Assembly: GCA_012518905.1 (NCBI GenBank) | Contig: JAAYRF010000149.1 | Coordinates: 1-36,396, forward strand | Origin: Bacillota bacterium | GTDB taxonomy: Bacteria; Bacillota; Limnochordia; DTU087 | Length of the DNA: 36,396 nt | Direction: 5' to 3' | Shown: in pieces, positions 11,910 to 27,905 of the stretch | Numbering within the stretch: the first letter of the stretch is position 1 | Layout of the letters: every line of letters starts with the position of its first letter | Program-made: the position numbers and the translations under genes | Notes under the pieces: generated by a model | Databases searched by the model: none | What the model saw: only the letters and a program-made list of their open reading frames with translations | Told to the model about the DNA's origin: nothing

Positions 11910-11996
11910 CAGGTGCTAGCAGGTTGGATCTGGGAATATATTCAGTGACAGGCCTCAGCCGATTAGCTAGTTAGTTTGCAGGGAAGTGATAGCAGT

Positions 11997-13046
11997 ATGG
12001 AGCGGCGTCTGAAGATAGTCTTGGCAGCTTTGGCGGTAGTAGCCTTAGTGTTTATCGGAACCAAGTATCTTTTGGAATACTGTGGTCCCTTCATGTTGGC
12101 GATCCTCATCGCCGCAGTTATTGACCCTTTCGTTAACTTGCTGGAAGGGCGCTTGAAGCTCTCTAGGGGATGGGCTACCCTCATTGTTCTGCTCTTCTTT
12201 CTTGCCTTGGTAATCCTATTGCTTACAATCATGGTGACCAATCTGACGGCTGAGCTTACCCACTTAGTATCACTGTTGCCTAGATACCGGAGTCATTGGG
12301 AGGCGTGGATCAGCGATCTGATTGTCTGGTTGGAGCATCTTTATGTCGCAATCTTCGAGCAGATTCCAACCCCCATGGTAGAGATCGTGCGGCTGGATTT
12401 CGATCGAGTAGTTGACACGATTCGTATGCTAACCGCTCGTTTTTTGGGAAGTCTAAGTCGGTTGCCAGCTTTCATGTTTACTCTAATAATCGCCAGTATT
12501 GCCACCTTCTTCATTAGTCGAGATCGGCGCTTATTCACCTCATTCTTCATGGGGCTGGTCCCAAAACGCTGGCGACCTCAGGCTGAGCACATCAAGAGCG
12601 AGGTGGCCAACGGCATTTTCGGCGTCTTCCGGTCACAACTGATGCTGATCTCCCTATCCGGTTCTCTGGCGGTGATCGGGCTGACTGCCCTTCGGATCCG
12701 ATATGCATGGCTCTTGGGACTATTGGTAGCTATTTTGGATTTCATTCCCATGACTGGACCGAGCGCTGTTTTCGTCCCCCTGGTTTTCTACCACATAATC
12801 ATTGGCAATATCGCTTACGCAGCTTGGCTGACCATTATATTGGGAATTATCCTCGTCACTCGGCGGTTAGCTGAGCCCCGGATCATGGGAGCCCAGTTGG
12901 GGCTACACCCTCTTACTTCATTGATGGCCATCTACCTAGGGGTTCAGTTCTTGGGTGTAAGCGGCTTCATCTTAGGGCCCATTGTAATGGTGGTTTTAAA
13001 GGCAATCATGGTAGTAATCTTTATTCCAGCGTGGAGTGAAGATTAG
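11997..13046 (+). CDS. AI-2E family transporter / UPF0118-type permease (YtvI/YdiK-like)
   Basis: Multi-TM protein; ILIAAVIDPFVNLLEGRLKLSRGWATLIVLL N-terminal part and ILDFIPMTGPSAVFVPL...GAQLGLHPLTSLMAIYLGVQFLGVSGFILGPI C-terminal signature. Confidence 0.88.
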   Translation: MERRLKIVLAALAVVALVFIGTKYLLEYCGPFMLAILIAAVIDPFVNLLEGRLKLSRGWATLIVLLFFLALVILLLTIMVTNLTAELTHLVSLLPRYRSHWEAWISDLIVWLEHLYVAIFEQIPTPMVEIVRLDFDRVVDTIRMLTARFLGSLSRLPAFMFTLIIASIATFFISRDRRLFTSFFMGLVPKRWRPQAEHIKSEVANGIFGVFRSQLMLISLSGSLAVIGLTALRIRYAWLLGLLVAILDFIPMTGPSAVFVPLVFYHIIIGNIAYAAWLTIILGIILVTRRLAEPRIMGAQLGLHPLTSLMAIYLGVQFLGVSGFILGPIVMVVLKAIMVVIFIPAWSED

Positions 13047-16526: not shown

Positions 16527-18269
16527 ATGAGAATGTCCATGCTCCTGGCACCGACTCTCCGGGAGGTTCCGGCAGAGGCGGAGATCGCCAGTCATAAATT
16601 GATGCTAAGGGCAGGTTTGATGCGGAAAGCCGCAGCGGGGATTTATACGTATCTGCCCTTGGGGTATCGGACACTGCAGAAAATTGAAGCGATAATCAGA
16701 GAAGAAATGAACGCAGCTGACGGCCAGGAGGTTTTGCTCCCCATACTTCAGCCCGCTGAGCTATGGCACGAATCCAACCGGTGGGACGACTATGGTGAAG
16801 AGATGTTTAAGCTCAAAGACCGTAATGGGAGGCAGTTTTGCTTAGGCCCTACCCATGAAGAGATCATAACCGCCTTAGTGCGAACAGAGATTAGATCGTA
16901 TCGGCAATTGCCGTTGCTTTTATATCAAATTCAAAACAAATACCGTGATGAGATCCGACCTCGGTTTGGCATAATGCGGGGTAGAGAATTTATCATGAAG
17001 GATCTCTATTCCTTTGACCGGGATGCCCAAGGACTCGATAAGAACTACTGGAAAATGTATCATGCCTATGAGCGAGTATTTGCCCGCTGTGGCCTAAAAA
17101 CTAGGCCTGTAGAGGCCGATCCCGGCGCCATCGGGGGCAACATGACCCATGAGTTTATGGCCCTAGCCGAAGCAGGCGAGGCGGAGATCGTCTATTGTTC
17201 ACATTGTGACTATGCAGCTAATGTGGAAAAAGCCCAGAGTGTTATCTCTTCGGGCAAGAAAACAGGAGTACTGGAGGGACTTGCCAAGGTATCTACTCCC
17301 AATATCCGCACGGTAGAGGAGTTAGGCGAGTTCTTGGGCCGCCCTGCCAGTGATATGATCAAGACCATGCTCTATCACAACAGCGATATGGTGGTAGCAG
17401 CTCTGGTCAGGGGGGATCATGCAGTCAATGACATCAAACTGGCTAGAGCAGTGGGGGTAATGGAGCTGGAATTGGCTGACCAAGCCACCATCGAGGAAGT
17501 TACCGGTGCTCCCATGGGATTTGCCGGTCCCGTTGGTCTCAAAGGCTGTCGTATCATCGCCGACCCTACAGTAATGGAGATGGAAAACGCGATTAGCGGC
17601 GGTAATGCAGTAGATGTGCACATGACTGGCGTCAACCCGGGCCGGGATTTCAAACCGGATCTGGTAATCGATATTCGCACTGCACAGCCCGGTGACTCTT
17701 GTCCCTGTGGTCAGGGTACCCTGATCGGGGCTCGGGGCATTGAAGTAGGACAAGTCTTTAAGCTTGGAACTAAGTATAGCCAGGCTCTGGGAGCCACATT
17801 CCTGGATGAGGCAGGCGAGGAAAATCTTCTGATTATGGGCTGCTATGGGATAGGTGTAACCAGGACTATGGCGGCGGTGGTGGAACAGTGCCACGACGAT
17901 GACGGCATAATCTGGCCCATGAGCCTCGCACCTTATCATGTAATCGTTGTACCGATTAACTATCGAGACGAGTCCCAGAAAGCGGTGGTGGATGCGCTGT
18001 ACGAAGACCTCACCATGGCTGGCATAGAAGTAGTGCTCGATGACCGTAATGAACGACCAGGCGTGAAGTTCAAAGATGCCGATCTAATAGGGTTTCCTAT
18101 CCGTATCACGGTAGGCCCCAGAACCCTTGAAAACAAAGAAGCAGAAGTTCGTCTCCGTAGCACTGGCGAGGAATACGTAATCCCTTTAAGTGAAGTGGTG
18201 ACCAATGCTAAAGAACGAATCAGAAGAGCTATCGAAGCAGAACTACCGGATAGCCGTCGAGGAAGATAA
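16527..18269 (+). CDS. proS: Prolyl-tRNA synthetase (bacterial type with INS editing domain)
   Basis: MRMSMLLAPTLREVPAEAEIASHKLMLRAGLMRKAAAGIYTYLPLGYRTLQKIE; class II motifs; ATG 16527 preferred because ATG 16500 overlaps the promoter -10. Confidence 0.97.
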   Translation: MRMSMLLAPTLREVPAEAEIASHKLMLRAGLMRKAAAGIYTYLPLGYRTLQKIEAIIREEMNAADGQEVLLPILQPAELWHESNRWDDYGEEMFKLKDRNGRQFCLGPTHEEIITALVRTEIRSYRQLPLLLYQIQNKYRDEIRPRFGIMRGREFIMKDLYSFDRDAQGLDKNYWKMYHAYERVFARCGLKTRPVEADPGAIGGNMTHEFMALAEAGEAEIVYCSHCDYAANVEKAQSVISSGKKTGVLEGLAKVSTPNIRTVEELGEFLGRPASDMIKTMLYHNSDMVVAALVRGDHAVNDIKLARAVGVMELELADQATIEEVTGAPMGFAGPVGLKGCRIIADPTVMEMENAISGGNAVDVHMTGVNPGRDFKPDLVIDIRTAQPGDSCPCGQGTLIGARGIEVGQVFKLGTKYSQALGATFLDEAGEENLLIMGCYGIGVTRTMAAVVEQCHDDDGIIWPMSLAPYHVIVVPINYRDESQKAVVDALYEDLTMAGIEVVLDDRNERPGVKFKDADLIGFPIRITVGPRTLENKEAEVRLRSTGEEYVIPLSEVVTNAKERIRRAIEAELPDSRRGR

Positions 18270-18270
18270 G

Positions 18271-18915
18271 ATGTCTAGTATGGGTCAGCAAGTTGCAGCG
18301 GTTGTACCCGCCTATAACGAAGCACAGACCATAAGCCATGTGCTTGAGGTGTTGCAGCAGTGCCCCGAAATAGACGAAATCATTGTAGTTAACGATGGAT
18401 CTACCGACGACACTGCGGAGAAAGCCGCTGAGTTGGGGATCCGTGTAGTAAACTTGTATCCCAACCGAGGCAAAGGAGGCGCCATGCGGGCTGGGGTGAA
18501 AGCTTCATCCGCAGACATAATCTTATTCATTGATGCCGATCTGATAGGGCTTACCCATGCACACTGTCATGCTTTGCTAGAGCCAGTGCTGCAGGATGTG
18601 GCAGATATGACTGTGGGATTGTTTGAAGGAGGGCGGCCCGCGACAACCCTCGCACAGAAAGTAGCGCCATTTCTTTCTGGTCAGAGGGCTCTTCGTCGAG
18701 AGATCATCGAAGACATGCCCGAGCTAGATGACAGTGGCTATGGCGTGGATATTGCGATTTCCCGATATGCTGCATCTAAGAGTATTCGGGTGGAGAAGGT
18801 ACCGCTACAGGATGTATCCCAAATCATGAAGGAAGAAAAACAAGGTTTCGTCACCGGAGCGAAGAATCGCATGATGATGTACTGGGAGATCCTCAAGGTA
18901 CTGCGCACTAAGTGA
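18271..18915 (+). CDS. Family 2 glycosyltransferase
   Basis: VVPAYNEAQTISHVLEVL...EIIVVNDGSTDDTAEKA...NRGKGGAMRAGVKASSADIILFIDADL. Start reset from 18205 to ATG 18271 with SD GAGGA. Confidence 0.92.
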   Translation: MSSMGQQVAAVVPAYNEAQTISHVLEVLQQCPEIDEIIVVNDGSTDDTAEKAAELGIRVVNLYPNRGKGGAMRAGVKASSADIILFIDADLIGLTHAHCHALLEPVLQDVADMTVGLFEGGRPATTLAQKVAPFLSGQRALRREIIEDMPELDDSGYGVDIAISRYAASKSIRVEKVPLQDVSQIMKEEKQGFVTGAKNRMMMYWEILKVLRTK

Positions 18916-21900
18916 GATCTTGGATGGCAATAGTATTGGAAAGGACCCTTGATGTGGCTAGTGATGTAGTTATTTACGAGGTTATTCCCCAAACCAGGGG
19001 TCAGTGTTTGCTAGATTTTTTTCGGGCGGCCCAGCTTTCTCTAGACTGTGAAAGTATAGCCGCCCGAGCCATTGTAAGCCGAATCCTGGTTCACGCCAAG
19101 CGTCAAGCGTGGAGGATTTGCCTGGCCAATGGTAATGACCTACGCCCTCAGGATCTAAATGAATTGGGCGCAGCTTTGGTTGAAGCTGTTCCGGAGGTCT
19201 GCTCTGTCCAATTCAAGATCGAGGCAGACTCTGAGATCGACTCTGCCGGTGAACCTAAAGAAATGGCCGATTCAGACAATCAAGGTGGATATGATTTTCT
19301 CTCTGCCGATGAAGCTACTTATATGGCCTATATAATGGAGCAAGCGGCCCGAACTATAGATGCGGACCCCATCGAGGCTAAATCCCAGGCTAATGTAAAT
19401 GGCCCCGTTGTCTTAAAGGGCCGTCCCATCAGAGAAGAATCTCGGCCGATTTGTGAAATCATCGATGAAGAACGCTCCTACGTATTGGCGGGTGAGATTG
19501 CCTCCATAGACGAACGGGAACTGCGAAGCGGTAGGCGTTTGCTGCAAATCGATGTCACTGATTACAGTGATTCCCTCACCCTAAAAATTTTCGAAGAACA
19601 AGATGCCCCTCGACTCGTTGATAGTCTAACTAAAGGCCGTTGGATAAAAGCTCGGGGACCTATTCAGTGGGATAGATATACCCAGGAGCTTTCTATGCTA
19701 CCCAACGACATCCAGACACAGAAGACTCCAGAATATCTCGTGCGTCAAGATACTGCTCAAAAGAAGCGGATAGAACTGCATCTGCATAGCAAGATGTCAG
19801 CCATGGACGGAACGTTAGAGATAACTGAGGCGATCAAACTAGCGGCTGACTGGGGGCACAAGGCTATTGCCATTACAGACCACGGTGTTGTTCAGGGATT
19901 CCCAGAAGCCCATATGGCGGGTAAAAGAGCAGGTATAAAGGTGATCTACGGCATGGAAGGATACCTTGTGGATGAGGATGACCTTCGGGGACCTTCCTAC
20001 CACATAGTCTTGTTGGCGCGTAATCAAAGAGGATTGAGAAATCTTTATAAGTTAGTCTCCCTTTCCCACCTCAAGTATTTCTATCGCCGACCACGTTTGC
20101 CCCGTCGGCTGATTGCAGATTATCGAGAGGGACTCTTGATCGGCTCTGCATGTGAAGCCGGTGAAATCTACCAAGCTTGCCTCAAAGGAGCAAGTGAAGA
20201 AGAGCTGGTAAAGATTGCTCGATTTTACGACTACCTCGAGATCCAGCCCCTTAAGAACAACGCGTTCTTGGTGGGCAGTAGAGTCGAATCAGAACGAGAG
20301 CTAGAAGACATAAATCGCCGCATAGTAGCTTTAGGAACTAAGCTCGGCAAAGCAGTGGTGGCTACCGGTGATACCCATTTCTTACATCCCTGGGACGAGG
20401 TCTACCGACGCATCCTTATGGCGGGGCAGGGATACGAAGATGCTGAAAGACAAGCTCCGCTGTTTCTCCGCACGACCGGTGAGATGCTAGAAGAGTTTGC
20501 CTACCTAGGCAAAGAAACAGCCCAAGAAGTAGTCATTAATGGCCCCAATCGCGTCAACGAAATGATTGAAGATTTGCAGCCGGTTCCCGACGGTCTCTAC
20601 GCCCCTCAAATCGAAGGAGCCGATGACCGGGTACTAGCCATGACGTATGAAAGAGCCAAAGAGATCTACGGTAATCCACTACCGGAAATCGTTGAAGAGC
20701 GGATCGCAAAAGAACTAAGTGCCATAATAGGGAATGGCTTTGCCGTTCTTTACCTAATTGCCCACAAGCTAGTTAAGAAATCGCTGGATGATGGTTATCT
20801 AGTGGGCTCCCGGGGATCGGTAGGCTCTTCCCTCGTTGCTACTTTGAGCGGAGTTACAGAGGTCAACCCATTGCCTCCCCATTATGTATGTCCCCGTTGT
20901 CATGCCAGTCATTTCGTTTTAGACGGCTCTGTAGAGGCGGGTGTCGATCTAGAGGATCGCTGGTGTGAATGTGGCGAAATATACGAAAAACACGGGTTTG
21001 ACATACCTTTTGAAGTCTTCATGGGGTTCCACGGGGAGAAAGTTCCTGACATTGATCTTAACTTCTCCGGGGAATATCAGAGCGTTGTTCATAAGTATAC
21101 AGAGGAGCTCTTCGGTTCGGAACACGTTTTTCGAGCAGGTACGATAGGTACTCTTGCCGAGAAAACGAGCTATGGCTTTGTGCTAAAATACTTGGAGAGC
21201 AAGGGGCAAACTTCAAGAACTGCGGAGATCAACCGATTAGTACGGGGCTGTACCGGTGTCCGTCGTACTACCGGGCAGCACCCTGGTGGGATGATCGTTG
21301 TACCGGAAGGCCACGATATCCATGAGTTTACGCCTGTGCAACATCCTGCCAATGATGGCAAATCGGGAATCATTACCACACATTTTGATTACAATGCTAT
21401 TAGCGAACAATTAGTCAAGCTAGATATTCTAGGCCATGATGACCCCACCATGATCAGAATGCTGGAAGACGCTACTGGCATAGATGCACTGAGCATCCCT
21501 TTAAATGATCCTCCTACAATGGCGTTGTTTTCTTCATTGGAGTCTCTGGGATTGACCCCGGAGGAGCTTGGTACCACTGTCGGTACTTTAGGGATACCGG
21601 AGTTCGGCACACGGTTTGTCCGGCAGATGCTAGAGGACACTCGGCCCAATACCTTTGGGCAGCTGGTTCGTATCTCGGGACTTTCCCACGGAACCAATGT
21701 TTGGGCAAATAATGCTCAGGATTTAATTCGAAGCGGCATAACAGATCTGGAGCATGCCATCGCCACCAGAGATGATATCATGAATTATCTCATTCAGCTG
21801 GGCATGGAACCCCAGACAGCTTTCCAGATCATGGAGAGGGTACGCAAAGGTAGAGGCCTAAGGCCAGAGGACGAGCAGGCTATGCAAGAGGCCGGCGTGC

Positions 21901-22466
21901 CAACCTGGTATCTTGAGTCATGCAGGAAGATCAGCTACCTTTTCCCCAAGGCCCATGCAGTGGCCTATGTAACCATGGCCTTTCGCATAGCATACTTCAA
22001 AGTCCATCACCCGTTGGCATTCTATGAAGCCTTCTTCACAATTCGCGCCGATGATTTTGACGTACAGCTGACAAGAGAAGGCATCCCTGGAGTCAGAAAG
22101 GCAATTGCTGCCATAATTGAAAAGGGCAGTTCCGCCAGTGCCAAGGAGAGGAATGTACTGACTGTTGCCGAGGTGATCCTGGAAGCAATGCTCCGGGGGA
22201 TTGAGTTCTTACCAGTAGACATCTATGAATCTCACCCCACCAATTTTCTTCAGCGGGACAGCAAACTGCTTCCACCACTGGCCGCGGTGCCTGGGGTAGG
22301 GCGAACAGCTGCATTGACCATAACCACTGGTCGACAGGAAGGGGAATTCGCCTCCTGGGAAGACTTAAGGCTAAGGTGTGGGGTAAGCAGAGCGGTAATC
22401 GAAGCGTTGGCCGCCCATGGAGCTTTGGATGGATTGCCAGAGTCATCGCAACTCTCCCTATTCTAG
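18912..22466 (+). CDS. polC: DNA polymerase III PolC-type alpha subunit, apparently lacking the 3'-5' exonuclease domain
   Basis: PolC polymerase core (LVKKSLDDGYLVGSRGSVGSS, GEKVPDIDLNFSGEYQ, GCTGVRRTTGQHPGGMIVVPEG, GTNVWANNAQDLI) with terminal clamp motif QLSLF. OB and PHP domains present; PHP runs without a DEDD insert; 1184 aa. Confidence 0.96.
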   Translation: MRSWMAIVLERTLDVASDVVIYEVIPQTRGQCLLDFFRAAQLSLDCESIAARAIVSRILVHAKRQAWRICLANGNDLRPQDLNELGAALVEAVPEVCSVQFKIEADSEIDSAGEPKEMADSDNQGGYDFLSADEATYMAYIMEQAARTIDADPIEAKSQANVNGPVVLKGRPIREESRPICEIIDEERSYVLAGEIASIDERELRSGRRLLQIDVTDYSDSLTLKIFEEQDAPRLVDSLTKGRWIKARGPIQWDRYTQELSMLPNDIQTQKTPEYLVRQDTAQKKRIELHLHSKMSAMDGTLEITEAIKLAADWGHKAIAITDHGVVQGFPEAHMAGKRAGIKVIYGMEGYLVDEDDLRGPSYHIVLLARNQRGLRNLYKLVSLSHLKYFYRRPRLPRRLIADYREGLLIGSACEAGEIYQACLKGASEEELVKIARFYDYLEIQPLKNNAFLVGSRVESERELEDINRRIVALGTKLGKAVVATGDTHFLHPWDEVYRRILMAGQGYEDAERQAPLFLRTTGEMLEEFAYLGKETAQEVVINGPNRVNEMIEDLQPVPDGLYAPQIEGADDRVLAMTYERAKEIYGNPLPEIVEERIAKELSAIIGNGFAVLYLIAHKLVKKSLDDGYLVGSRGSVGSSLVATLSGVTEVNPLPPHYVCPRCHASHFVLDGSVEAGVDLEDRWCECGEIYEKHGFDIPFEVFMGFHGEKVPDIDLNFSGEYQSVVHKYTEELFGSEHVFRAGTIGTLAEKTSYGFVLKYLESKGQTSRTAEINRLVRGCTGVRRTTGQHPGGMIVVPEGHDIHEFTPVQHPANDGKSGIITTHFDYNAISEQLVKLDILGHDDPTMIRMLEDATGIDALSIPLNDPPTMALFSSLESLGLTPEELGTTVGTLGIPEFGTRFVRQMLEDTRPNTFGQLVRISGLSHGTNVWANNAQDLIRSGITDLEHAIATRDDIMNYLIQLGMEPQTAFQIMERVRKGRGLRPEDEQAMQEAGVPTWYLESCRKISYLFPKAHAVAYVTMAFRIAYFKVHHPLAFYEAFFTIRADDFDVQLTREGIPGVRKAIAAIIEKGSSASAKERNVLTVAEVILEAMLRGIEFLPVDIYESHPTNFLQRDSKLLPPLAAVPGVGRTAALTITTGRQEGEFASWEDLRLRCGVSRAVIEALAAHGALDGLPESSQLSLF

Positions 22467-22503: not shown

Positions 22504-22532
22504 TTGTCAAGGCATTGCGAACGTGGTATACT
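22504..22532 (+). promoter_or_regulatory. Predicted sigma-A promoter for rimP-nusA-infB operon
   Basis: TTGTCA (22504-22509), 17 bp, TATACT (22527-22532) with extended -10 TGG. Confidence 0.75.
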
Positions 22533-22538
22533 GTGAAT

Positions 22539-22754
22539 GGAGAAGTCCGCGCTGCATTCTTTGTCGTGATGGACGGGACCTGGCGCGGCCTTGCTTTTGT
22601 CAATGATTTGTCTCGTGGAAAGAGTGGGTCATACCCACTCTTTCGTACTAGAAGGGAAACCTTAAGTTATGGCTTCAAAGGAGTGTGGTGATCTATAGGT
22701 ACCTGGTAGTAGGACCATTACATAGATCTAGCATGTGAATGATATCGGCGAAGG
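22539..22754 (+). promoter_or_regulatory. Structured untranslated leader of rimP-nusA operon (candidate cis-regulatory RNA)
   Basis: Hairpins GAAAGAGTGGGT-CAT-ACCCACTCTTTC (22618-22644), AAGG-GAAA-CCTT (22652-22663), GATCTAT...ATAGATC enclosing GGTACCT/AGGACC (22690-22728). Confidence 0.55.
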
Positions 22755-22780
22755 AGACTAGTGAATAGATTAGTCTTTTT
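22755..22780 (+). terminator. Weak intrinsic terminator/attenuator just upstream of rimP
   Basis: AGACTAGT-GAATAG-ATTAGTCT then TTTT; 8-bp AU-rich stem with one G-U pair, 19 nt before the rimP start. Confidence 0.6.
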
Positions 22781-22799
22781 GAGAAACGGGGGATAGACT

Positions 22800-23264
22800 A
22801 TGGGGCGTCAAAGTACAGAAGCTATTGTGACTCAGTTAGCGGAGGAGATCATGGCTGATTACCCAGAGCTCGAATTGGTAGATGTAAATTATGCTAAGGA
22901 AGGTGCTACCTGGGTTCTGCGAGTGTTTATTGATAAGGAAGCCGGTGTAGACTTGGAAGACTGTGAAAAAGTAAGTCGTCGACTGAGTGCAAGCCTAGAC
23001 GAGGTAGACCCTATACCCGGCAGCTATTCTCTGGAGGTATCATCACCGGGACTGGAAAGGCCTCTTACCAAGGACGCTCACTTTCAGAGGTTTGCCGGAA
23101 AGCTGGTTTCAGTTAGAACCTATGCTCCGTTCCAAGGCAGCAAACAATGGAAAGGACGCTTAATGGGTTTGGTCGATGGCGCCATCACCGTAGAGGTCGA
23201 TGGCGAAGTTATTAAGATTCCTCGAGACCAGGTCGCCAAGGCCAACCTGGCTATAGAGTTTTAG
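22800..23264 (+). CDS. rimP: Ribosome maturation factor RimP (YlxS)
   Basis: ELVDVNYAKEGATWVLRVFIDKEAGVDLEDCEKVSRRLSASLDEVDPIPGSYSLEVSSPGLERPL. Confidence 0.97.
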   Translation: MGRQSTEAIVTQLAEEIMADYPELELVDVNYAKEGATWVLRVFIDKEAGVDLEDCEKVSRRLSASLDEVDPIPGSYSLEVSSPGLERPLTKDAHFQRFAGKLVSVRTYAPFQGSKQWKGRLMGLVDGAITVEVDGEVIKIPRDQVAKANLAIEF

Positions 23265-23287: not shown

Positions 23288-25087
23288 ATGAATCTCGATG
23301 TAGTGAGCGCTCTAAACGAACTGGAAAAAGAGCGGGGCATCGCTAAAGAAATAATACTGGAAGCCATTGAGGCTGCGATTACCTCTGCCTACAAGCGCAA
23401 TTACGGTACTTCGCAGAATGTTAGGGTGGAGATTGATAGCAAAACCGGAAACATCGGGGTCTACGCCCGGAAAGCAGTTGTTGAGGAGGTAACCGATGAG
23501 GCCAGCGAGATTAGCCTCTCGGAAGCCAAAGAGACTGATCCGAACTATGTGCTCGATGACATAGTGGAGATTGAAGTTACTCCCAGTGACTTTGGCCGCA
23601 TAGCCGCTCAAACCGCAAAACAAGTAGTTATTCAAAGAATCCGTGAGGCAGAGCGGGCCCTAGTCTACGATGAGTTTAGCAGCCGTGAAGGAGAAGTCAT
23701 CACCGGTATTGTACAGCGCTCGGATCATAGGAATGTCATCATAGATCTAGGTAAAGCAGAAGCAATCTTGGGACCGAGCGATCAGATGCCAGGCGAGTTC
23801 CACTCTCAAGGGGCAAGACTGAAGGTTTACGTTTCAGAAGTCAGACAAACCAATAAGGGGCCACAAATATACGTCTCCCGCACCCACCCCGGTCTGGTAA
23901 GTCGGCTCTTTGAAATGGAAGTGCCCGAGATCCACGATGGGATCGTTGAGATTAGGGCAGTCGCTCGGGAGGCTGGAGCCCGTTCCAAGCTGGCAGTATC
24001 GTCTCGAGATGAAAACGTTGATCCTGTAGGAGCCTGTGTTGGGCCCAGGGGATCAAGGGTTCAGGCGGTTGTCAATGAGCTGCGTGGTGAGAAGATCGAT
24101 GTCATCCCCTGGTCGGCTCTCCCGGAGGATTTTGTCGGGAACGCTCTAAGTCCGGCAAAAGTAATCCGGGTCTATCTTGATGAAGATAGCAAGACTGCTC
24201 GGGCTGTCGTACCGGATAATCACCTGTCTTTGGCGATTGGTAAGGAAGGGCAGAATGCCCGTTTGGCGGCTCGTCTCACTGGATGGAGAATAGACATTAA
24301 GAGCCAGGAGCAGATGGCCCAGATTCTGGCCCGGGAAGCTTTCGAAAGAGCGACTCCCGAGGAATCAGAATCGGAGGAAGAGGTTCCTTTAGAAGAAGAG
24401 TTGTCCGTGGAAGAGGAACCGGTTCTCTCGGCTGAATCACCAGAGGAGATGGAGCCAACGCCTACGGATGATTCCCAAGATGAGGTAGCCGCTGGTGATC
24501 GAGCCTCTAAGGGTTTGGAAGACGATGCTTTGGCACAACCATTAGCCGATGGGAAATCGGTTACTGAAGATGAACTGGGAGACGCTCCCTTAGCAGAAAC
24601 CGTAGCAGAAGCCGTAGTGGAACGTGAAGAGACAGACGGGGAAGAGGAAATAGAAAAGATAGAACAATTGCCCCAGGAAGAACCCATTGCATTAGATGAG
24701 ACAGACGAAGATGATGCCTCTGGAGCAGCTGACCTAGAACTATCAGAGGAAGAAATAAGACGTCGAAGAGAACCTAGAGTAGCAGCAGGAACTCCTAAGG
24801 TCAAAAGTCGGAAGACCAGGAAGCAAGAGTTGGAGTCTTTACTGGAAGAAGAACTGATTGAGTCGGAGCCGCTACCCACCTTGTTCTCAGGAGGGCCAAA
24901 AAAGGATGGAACGGCAAGACACTATGTAATCGGGGCTGATGAGGGCGAGGAAGGCTTAACTCTGGCTAGTCGCTTAGGACTAGATACTGAGCAAAAGGCA
25001 GAGAAAAAAGGCAAGAAGCAATCCCCTAAGAAGGTGATTAAAGACCTTTCCGAGCTAGGTCTTGTGGATTTCGAATTCGACGAGTAG
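23288..25087 (+). CDS. nusA: Transcription termination/antitermination factor NusA with long acidic C-terminal extension
   Basis: NusA N-domain, S1 (EGEVITGIVQRSDHRNVIIDLGKAEAILG) and KH1/KH2 (VGACVGPRGSRVQAVVNELRGEKIDVIPW; DNHLSLAIGKEGQNARLAARLTGWRIDI), then about 245 further residues, largely Glu/Asp-rich. Confidence 0.97.
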   Translation: MNLDVVSALNELEKERGIAKEIILEAIEAAITSAYKRNYGTSQNVRVEIDSKTGNIGVYARKAVVEEVTDEASEISLSEAKETDPNYVLDDIVEIEVTPSDFGRIAAQTAKQVVIQRIREAERALVYDEFSSREGEVITGIVQRSDHRNVIIDLGKAEAILGPSDQMPGEFHSQGARLKVYVSEVRQTNKGPQIYVSRTHPGLVSRLFEMEVPEIHDGIVEIRAVAREAGARSKLAVSSRDENVDPVGACVGPRGSRVQAVVNELRGEKIDVIPWSALPEDFVGNALSPAKVIRVYLDEDSKTARAVVPDNHLSLAIGKEGQNARLAARLTGWRIDIKSQEQMAQILAREAFERATPEESESEEEVPLEEELSVEEEPVLSAESPEEMEPTPTDDSQDEVAAGDRASKGLEDDALAQPLADGKSVTEDELGDAPLAETVAEAVVEREETDGEEEIEKIEQLPQEEPIALDETDEDDASGAADLELSEEEIRRRREPRVAAGTPKVKSRKTRKQELESLLEEELIESEPLPTLFSGGPKKDGTARHYVIGADEGEEGLTLASRLGLDTEQKAEKKGKKQSPKKVIKDLSELGLVDFEFDE

Positions 25088-25126: not shown

Positions 25127-25399
25127 GTGCGGAAACAGCGAAGGGTACCCCAAAGGACATGTATCGGCTGTCGCACCGTTCGCCCCAAGAGGGATTTGGT
25201 TCGGATCGTGCGTACCCCCCAAGGAGTAATTCAGCTCGATGTAACAGGGAAACAGTCCGGGCGAGGCGCGTATATATGTCCATCCCGAGCCTGCATTGAA
25301 CAGGCCTTCAAACGCAAGCTGTTGGAAAAGGCACTAGAGACAAGCATCGATACGGAAACGATTGAGCGTCTGCGAGGCGAGGTGGCGAAGCTGCAGTGA
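25127..25399 (+). CDS. rnpM: YlxR-family nucleoid/RNA-binding protein (RnpM)
   Basis: RRVPQRTCIGCRTVRPKRDLVRIVRTPQG...GRGAYICPSRACIEQAFKRK. Confidence 0.93.
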   Translation: MRKQRRVPQRTCIGCRTVRPKRDLVRIVRTPQGVIQLDVTGKQSGRGAYICPSRACIEQAFKRKLLEKALETSIDTETIERLRGEVAKLQ

Positions 25400-25725
25400 A
25401 AGCTTTGAGTTTACTGGGATTCGCCCAGGCGGCCGGCCAGCTAGTATCAGGTTATAATGGCTGTCTGGCTGTGTTGCGACGGAGGCGAGCCAACTTGGTG
25501 GTTTTAGCTACCGATGCTAGCCCGGGTACCCAGGAGACATTTCTCCGGGCAGCCAGGGAAATTCCTGTGATCATATTTGCCAACAAAGAAGCACTAGGCA
25601 ACGCAATTGGCAAGCCGCCTACGGCTGTGCTTTGTGTGCAGAATCCCCAGATGGCTCAAGCAATCAAGGAAGCTGTGAACATGAATATAGCGGAGGCAGA
25701 GGGTGCCCATGGAGAAGTGAGATAA
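25396..25725 (+). CDS. ylxQ: L7Ae/L30e/S12e-like ribosomal protein YlxQ
   Basis: LSLLGFAQAAGQLVSGYNGCLAVLRRRRANLVVLATDASPGTQE; overlaps rnpM by 4 nt; canonical nusA-ylxR-ylxQ-infB position. Confidence 0.9.
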   Translation: MKALSLLGFAQAAGQLVSGYNGCLAVLRRRRANLVVLATDASPGTQETFLRAAREIPVIIFANKEALGNAIGKPPTAVLCVQNPQMAQAIKEAVNMNIAEAEGAHGEVR

Positions 25726-25754
25726 GACAGGATGATAGGTAGGGGTGATGGTAT

Positions 25755-27905
25755 ATGGTGAGAGTTCGAGTTTATGAACTAGCCAGGGAATTGGGGATAA
25801 AGAGTAAGCACTTAGTTGAGTTTTTGCAGGACCTCGGCGCCGACGTCAAAAATCACATGAGTACAATAGACGATGATATAGCCATTTTGGTTAAAGAGCA
25901 TTTTGCCAGTCAAAAAGAGCAAGCAAAGGAGACAGAACCTGTGGAGCCAACTGCTGATCAAGGTCCTAAGGCGGCAGAAGCCCCCAAGAAACGTTCGCCA
26001 CAAACCAATCGGAGAGCAGATGCTGAATCGGCTGAAGACGATTTGAAAGAGGATACCGGCCCAGCGAAGTCCAGGAAGCAACGGCAACCTAGCTCCCGCA
26101 AGGCTCAAAGTCATCGTCGGGGGGCGGGCAAGACGAAGACTAGTCAAAAACAAAAGCCGAAGGAAGTAGAGATTCCTGAAAACATTACAGTCAGGGAACT
26201 AGCGGCGCGGATGAGTATCCCAGCCACCACCATAATCAAGAAGCTAATGGGAATGGGGATCTTAGCTACTGTTCCGCAAAGCATCAGTTGGGAAGCTGCA
26301 GCATCGGTAGCAGAGGATCTTGGGTATGAGGTGAAGCTACAGGAGATCAAAACGGTAGATCCTCTAGCTGATTTTGACGATCCTGAGGAGAAATTGCAGC
26401 CACGTCCCCCCATAGTCACCATTATGGGCCACGTTGACCACGGGAAAACCACCTTATTGGATGCGATTCGTGAGAGCAAAATAACAGAACAAGAGGCTGG
26501 TGGGATTACTCAGCATATCGGTGCATATCAAGTGGAATGCCATGGCAGACGAATTACCTTCCTTGATACACCGGGCCACGAGGCCTTTACAGCCATGCGT
26601 TCCCGAGGTGCTCAAGTGACAGATATTGCCGTTCTGGTCGTGGCAGCAGACGATGGAGTCATGCCTCAAACCAGGGAAGCCATTAGCCATGCCCAAGCTG
26701 CGGAGGTACCCATCATAGTAGCCATAAACAAAATGGACCGTCCTAATGCAAATCCAGATCGGATTAAGCAGAGCTTGGCTGAGCTAGGCCTCATACCGGA
26801 AGAATGGGGTGGGGACACTGTATGCGTCAACATATCCGCCCTCCGCAAGGAAGGCATCGACGATCTTCTGGAGATGATTCTTCTGGTGGCAGATCTCAGG
26901 GAGCTCAAGGCTAATCCCGACCGCATGGCCAGAGGTACCATTGTTGAAGCCAAGCTAGACAAAGGCCGAGGACCGGTAGCCACGGTATTGGTTCGCAACG
27001 GCACACTTCGAACCGGAGACGCCATTGTAGCTGGTTCTGTATGTGGGAGAGTACGGGCGATGCACGATGCCCTTGGGAAGAGGCTTGAGAAAGCAGGACC
27101 GGCTACGCCTGTAGAAGTTATTGGCCTGTCCGATGTACCAGAAGCCGGTGATCTAATGGTGGCTTTGGAGGATGAGAAACTGGCTCGCCAGATCGCGGCC
27201 GAAAGACAGGAAACCAAGCGGGCCGCAGAATTGAAACGTGTTGCGCCGATCTCGCTAGATGATCTTTTTGAACGCATCAAAGAGGGCGAAGTAAGAGAGC
27301 TCAACATAATTATCAAGGCTGATGTACAAGGTTCGGTGGAAGCTGTCCGTCAAGCTTTGGAAGGCCTAAGTACTGAGGAAGTGCGGGTCAATGTCATTCA
27401 TGGTGCTGCAGGCGGGATAACAGAAACAGATGTCAACCTAGCGGCCGCCTCCAATGCTGTCATCATAGGCTTTAACGTCCGGCCCGATGCCAACGCCGGT
27501 CGAGTGGCTGAATGGGAAAACGTAGAGATTCGCACTTACAGAGTAATTTACAATGCCATTGATGAGGTCAAATCTGCCATGGAAGGGCTCCTTGAGCCAG
27601 ACTATGTGGAAGAGGTCATTGGCAGGGCGGAAGTGCGAGCAACTTTCAAGGTGCCCAACGTTGGAACCATTGCCGGCAGCTATGTAACTGACGGGAAAAT
27701 CACCCGGAATGCCCACGTCCGGTTACTTCGAGATAGTATTGTGATCCACGAAGGTCTTATCTCGTCCCTCAAACGTTTCAAGGATGACGTGAGGGAAGTT
27801 GTGCAGGGATATGAATGCGGAATAGGCATAGAGCGATACAATGACATCAAAGAAGGCGATGAACTCGAGGCTTTCATCATGAAGGCAATCAAGAGGACCC
27901 TCTAA
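25755..27905 (+). CDS. infB: Translation initiation factor IF-2
   Basis: [95 protein letters not shown]. Confidence 0.99.

Follow-up and report, generated by a model that had tools for sequence, protein, structure and literature searches.

The rimP-nusA-infB locus and its leader

Within the 36,396-nt stretch of DNA analysed here (the window), from a bacterium of the phylum Bacillota, Pfam searches identified an operon in which RimP is encoded first and NusA second, followed by ylxR, a gene of the L7Ae family and infB. The gene rimP is preceded by a gap of 333 nt, upstream of which polC ends at position 22466. The features of the leader and the operon are listed below.

22504..22532, + strand: sigma-A-type promoter (consensus scan; conserved in the family alignment)
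22547..22588, + strand: P1, a family-specific helix pairing 22547-22552 with 22583-22588 (RNAalifold)
22618..22644, + strand: core hairpin of the rimP-leader, GAAAGAGTGGG-TCATA-CCCACTCTTTC, 12 bp (class relatives; phylum search; single copy in its own genome)
22639..22649, + strand: interrupted T-tract TCTTTCGTACT (sequence; T-rich tail kept in 100 leaders)
22751..22780, + strand: terminator-like hairpin of the preliminary description, 12 bp, -12.2 kcal/mol (this genome only; role doubtful)
22800..23264, + strand: rimP (Pfam PF02576, PF17384)
23288..25087, + strand: nusA, proposed source of feedback (Pfam PF08529, PF13184; S1 slightly below the cut-off)
25127..27905, + strand: ylxR, the L7Ae-family gene and infB, the remainder of the operon (Pfam)

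NusA, at 599 aa, has a long acidic C-terminal part. In polC (18912-22466), which encodes a 1184-aa DNA polymerase III alpha of the PolC type, the PHP domain is uninterrupted and a Pfam match to the exonuclease is absent; since a 206-aa PolC query spanning PHP gave a contiguous match in 30 of 31 relatives, the inserted proofreading domain of PolC seems to be missing across the class. A family 2 glycosyltransferase gene (18205-18915) lies between proS and polC, and a gene for an AI-2E family transporter (11976-13046) lies directly upstream of dxr.

A near-consensus promoter with an extended -10 had been proposed in the preliminary description, which was made from the sequence alone, and is indeed present, with TTGTCA at 22504-22509, a 17-nt spacer and TATACT at 22527-22532 (consensus scan). 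Its support comes from conservation in the family rather than from its score, which is unremarkable, with three promoter-like sites in 3 kb vs 2.6 expected by chance. We aligned the leaders of the family's 11 genomes and of one sister-family genome, and found that the -35 element, the 17-nt spacing and the extended -10 TGNTATACT are kept in all 11, with a near copy in the sister family. Because these elements are retained in this way, we regard the promoter at 22504-22532 as credible, with transcription predicted to start near 22539.

The hairpin at 22618-22644, the first of those in the preliminary description, was confirmed as a perfect 12-bp stem of -18.0 kcal/mol, and the 61 nt around it (22610-22670) fold with z = -4.85 relative to shuffled sequences. 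Between the predicted transcription start and the hairpin there are about 80 nt, and a further 155 nt separate the end of the hairpin from the start codon. The pair probabilities of the core hairpin were 0.81-1.0 at all transcript lengths tested, and no competing antiterminator fold was seen at any of these lengths. After CCCAC, the tail TCTTTCGT contains five T residues in eight positions and is interrupted, with similar tails in the relatives, and the hairpin was absent from the list of a simple terminator scan. Termination would be expected at about 22646-22650, and the leader RNA would then measure about 105-110 nt. Just 3' of the hairpin, the segment 22644-22656 (CGTAnTAnAAGG) is kept in the family, and other families have related CGTA/ACGTATG tails.

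The other structured elements of the leader were less widely shared. In P1, most pairs are kept in 10 of the 11 family genomes and two pairs have compensatory changes (RNAalifold), and the helix is absent from the aligned sister-family leader. A weak pairing, judged by eye, between GCATTCTTT in P1 and AAAGAGTG in the 5' arm of the core hairpin was rejected: its stability falls short of that of the core hairpin, and P1 does not occur in the leader of the sister family. Of the further hairpins described initially, AAGG-GAAA-CCTT at 22652-22663 is present, but neither its 3' arm nor its helix is conserved in the alignment; the one at 22690-22728 can also be drawn, but the segment 22665-22740 folds no better than shuffles (z = -0.28) and the helix is not conserved. 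Between the core hairpin and rimP, TTACATA(G/T)AT (22716-22728) is kept in most family leaders, outside the conserved helices. No conserved leader peptide was found, the short ORFs with a Shine-Dalgarno-like site differing between relatives, and an Rfam search of the window at the gathering cut-off and at E <= 5 gave no riboswitch, T-box, r-protein leader or other match.

Conservation of the core hairpin

In a sample of 61 genomes of the class, including the genome studied here, rimP was found in 60, and the stem AGAGTGGG/CCCACTCTTT was matched upstream of RimP in all 60, at distances of 46-264 nt. A search for the exact stem in 200 genomes of the phylum gave matches in 112, vs none of 200 for the reversed pattern, and among the phylum genomes without an exact match, all 40 of those sampled that had rimP carried the variant GTGGG...CCC[AG]C upstream of it. 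These two complete counts (60/60 and 40/40) constitute the evidence for conservation, whereas invariance within sets selected by the pattern, such as alignment A1, is no evidence by itself. In addition, a scan of bacteria and archaea, with one genome per species, gave 80 loci among the matches listed; in 66 of these the hairpin was upstream of rimP on the same strand, in three more it was beside rimP, and in at least five more it preceded nusA. The genome studied here has a single copy of the motif. Copies far from rimP in three genomes (G233, G182 and G093) resemble ordinary palindromes or dispersed repeats, and all three genomes still have a variant hairpin before rimP. In G093, the distant copies are three dispersed, near-identical AGAGTGGG...CCCACTCT palindromes (L238, L239 and L240), probably a repeat element.

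Comparison of related rimP leaders, as proposed in the preliminary description, bore out the conservation of the hairpin and revealed two-sided changes in its outer pairs. GTGGG...CCC[AG]C was found in 100 of 100 leaders, in which the inner GGG/CCC pairs never change; a U-A pair became U-G in four leaders, a G-C pair became A-U in five (one position), and A-U became G-C in four leaders at each of two other positions. The loop length, and hence the spacing of the arms, ranged from 4 to 12 nt across these leaders. In Verrucomicrobiota, the U-A pair also occurred in U-G wobble and C-G versions (read by eye). Because the outer pairs change two-sidedly and the loop varies in length, the element looks, as judged from these alignments, like an RNA helix whose core is constrained in sequence and not like an operator with fixed spacing.

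The hairpin before nusA where RimP was not detected

Eleven of the listed scan loci had no RimP match, and in five of them the next gene was nusA, namely L101 (Atribacteria), L108 (Planctomycetota), L116 (FCPU426) and L133 and L150 (both Verrucomicrobiota); at a further locus, L137, a similar motif precedes a reading frame that is apparently a shifted start of nusA. The RimP_N model, which matched 10 of 14 control genomes, gave no match in the whole assemblies of these six genomes. In G215, a member of the Bacillota with no RimP match, the hairpin lies 67 nt before the nusA match.

We found a similar situation in a sample of Verrucomicrobiota, the phylum of G254, in which RimP_N was matched in none of 39 genomes and NusA_N in all 39. 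In this phylum, 14 of 30 nusA leaders contained GTGGG...CCC[AG]C followed by a T-rich stretch within 200 nt of the start of the NusA domain, vs 1.4% of mononucleotide shuffles of the 350-nt leaders, none of 30 for the reversed pattern and none in the 1.2 kb further upstream. The simplest reading of these distributions is that the hairpin belongs to the nusA operon and would need no RimP, although the assemblies may be incomplete and RimP could be too diverged to be detected in such genomes. That the hairpin is retained before nusA in genomes without a detected RimP argues for NusA, or another product of the operon such as IF2, as the putative regulator in preference to RimP. In the literature searched, the coverage of which did not extend to many subscription papers, we found no statement that the hairpin stays with nusA without RimP.

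Relation to known leaders and a proposed mechanism

The preliminary description had left room for an undescribed cis-regulatory RNA, a suggestion that does not hold, as the leader corresponds to the rimP-leader reported by Naville & Gautheret in 2010 (PMC2965389) and is a new member of the attenuators described there; it is thus largely known, and the new part is the evidence for an association of the hairpin with nusA in genomes in which RimP was not detected. As in the published rimP-leader, which occurs in Firmicutes, the element is located in the 5' leader of rimP-nusA-infB, has a G-rich 5' arm, a C-rich 3' arm and an invariant GGG...CCC core, and has no visible antiterminator; its T-rich tail is a candidate counterpart of the published one. 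It differs in its distance from the start codon (155 nt vs the published 4-130 nt, a descriptive range that the relatives studied here span and that we do not count as a failed defining feature), in its interrupted T-tract and in the presence of P1 upstream. Rfam RF01770 shares the operon and the name, but this 102-position model had no match in the window or in the whole genome; the E. coli leader that it does match has a tandem arrangement of GCCCCG...CGGGGT and CTGGGC...GCCC.

The published work on this operon points to NusA. In PMC2965389, NusA was considered the best candidate regulator of the rimP-leader, and feedback by RimP was mentioned as a hypothesis. According to a review (PMC12288461, citing Mondal 2016), B. 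subtilis NusA is autoregulated by NusA-stimulated intrinsic termination in the leader; the operon is the same, and weak intrinsic termination in the leader would be shared, whereas dependence on NusA is experimental in B. subtilis and inferred here, and the likeness is one of description in that text rather than of aligned leaders. In S. agalactiae, a short terminated leader RNA is produced from the rimP operon and NusA feedback has been proposed (PMC4448216), as it is here, but termination occurs there 31 nt after the start, vs the predicted 105-110 nt. Moreover, distal interruptions of the U-tract are characteristic of NusA-dependent terminators (PMC8060035), and the T-tract of the present leader is likewise interrupted.

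We consider it probable that NusA-stimulated, weak intrinsic termination at the conserved hairpin exerts negative feedback on rimP-nusA-infB. Transcription would start at the conserved promoter, and the near-invariant hairpin 22618-22644 would form with a poor, interrupted U-tract. When NusA is plentiful, pausing and termination would be stimulated at about 22646-22650; when NusA is scarce, the polymerase would read through into the operon, so that NusA would set the output of the operon by negative feedback. Because no alternative fold is available to the leader, we take a protein to be a likelier switch than either a ligand or a ribosome engaged in translation. The NusA-responsive attenuator of the preliminary description fits both the evidence and the literature, but it is the first hairpin that is both conserved and terminator-like, which moves the predicted 3' end from 22780 to about 22646-22650.

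The hairpin assigned that role initially (22755-22780, or 22751-22780 as folded here) is present, is more stable than shuffled sequences (z = -3.3) and carries a T5 tail, but none of the other 11 leaders in the alignment contains this segment; we regard it as very improbable that this is the main attenuator terminator, and it is possibly a lineage-specific second one. A more serious competitor, though still an unlikely one, is that the core hairpin would act constitutively, as a weak terminator, a processing site or a pause site, and would let through a fixed fraction of polymerases without regulation by NusA. The anatomy alone fits a regulated and an unregulated terminator equally well, and the T-tract is weak and interrupted, but the core stem is conserved in sequence far beyond the needs of a plain terminator, and NusA feedback is reported for the B. 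subtilis operon (PMC12288461). A weakness of the reading we favour is that, with its T-tract too poor for a simple terminator scan to list, the core hairpin might mainly pause the polymerase rather than terminate transcription.

Feedback by RimP itself, or by another ribosome-assembly product, through binding to the hairpin and an effect on termination, translation or decay of the operon mRNA, would agree with the position of rimP as the first gene, with the link of RimP to 30S maturation and with the hypothesis raised by Naville & Gautheret (PMC2965389). We nevertheless think this quite unlikely in view of the hairpins that precede nusA without a detected RimP (L101, L108, L116, L133, L150 and G215) and of the Verrucomicrobiota, with 14 of 30 leaders bearing the hairpin and no RimP_N match in 39 genomes. 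An operator in DNA for a dimeric repressor, which a perfect palindrome with conserved arms might otherwise bring to mind, can scarcely be reconciled with arms spaced 4 to 12 nt apart, with outer pairs kept complementary through two-sided changes and G-U wobbles, or with a position roughly 80 nt into the predicted transcript.

The transcription factor NusA is essential, and the rimP-leader has been called the most ubiquitous transcription attenuator of bacteria, yet RF01770 matched E. coli alone among the 14 control genomes. The question raised by the element is why the sequence of its stem is conserved beyond pairing, which termination alone would not explain. A tentative reading, which we place a little short of probable, is that the rimP-leader may be a RimP-independent element of the nusA operon whose GGG/CCC core would be read in sequence by NusA-bound polymerase, and which would have been retained in several phyla, among them Verrucomicrobiota and further lineages without a detected RimP.
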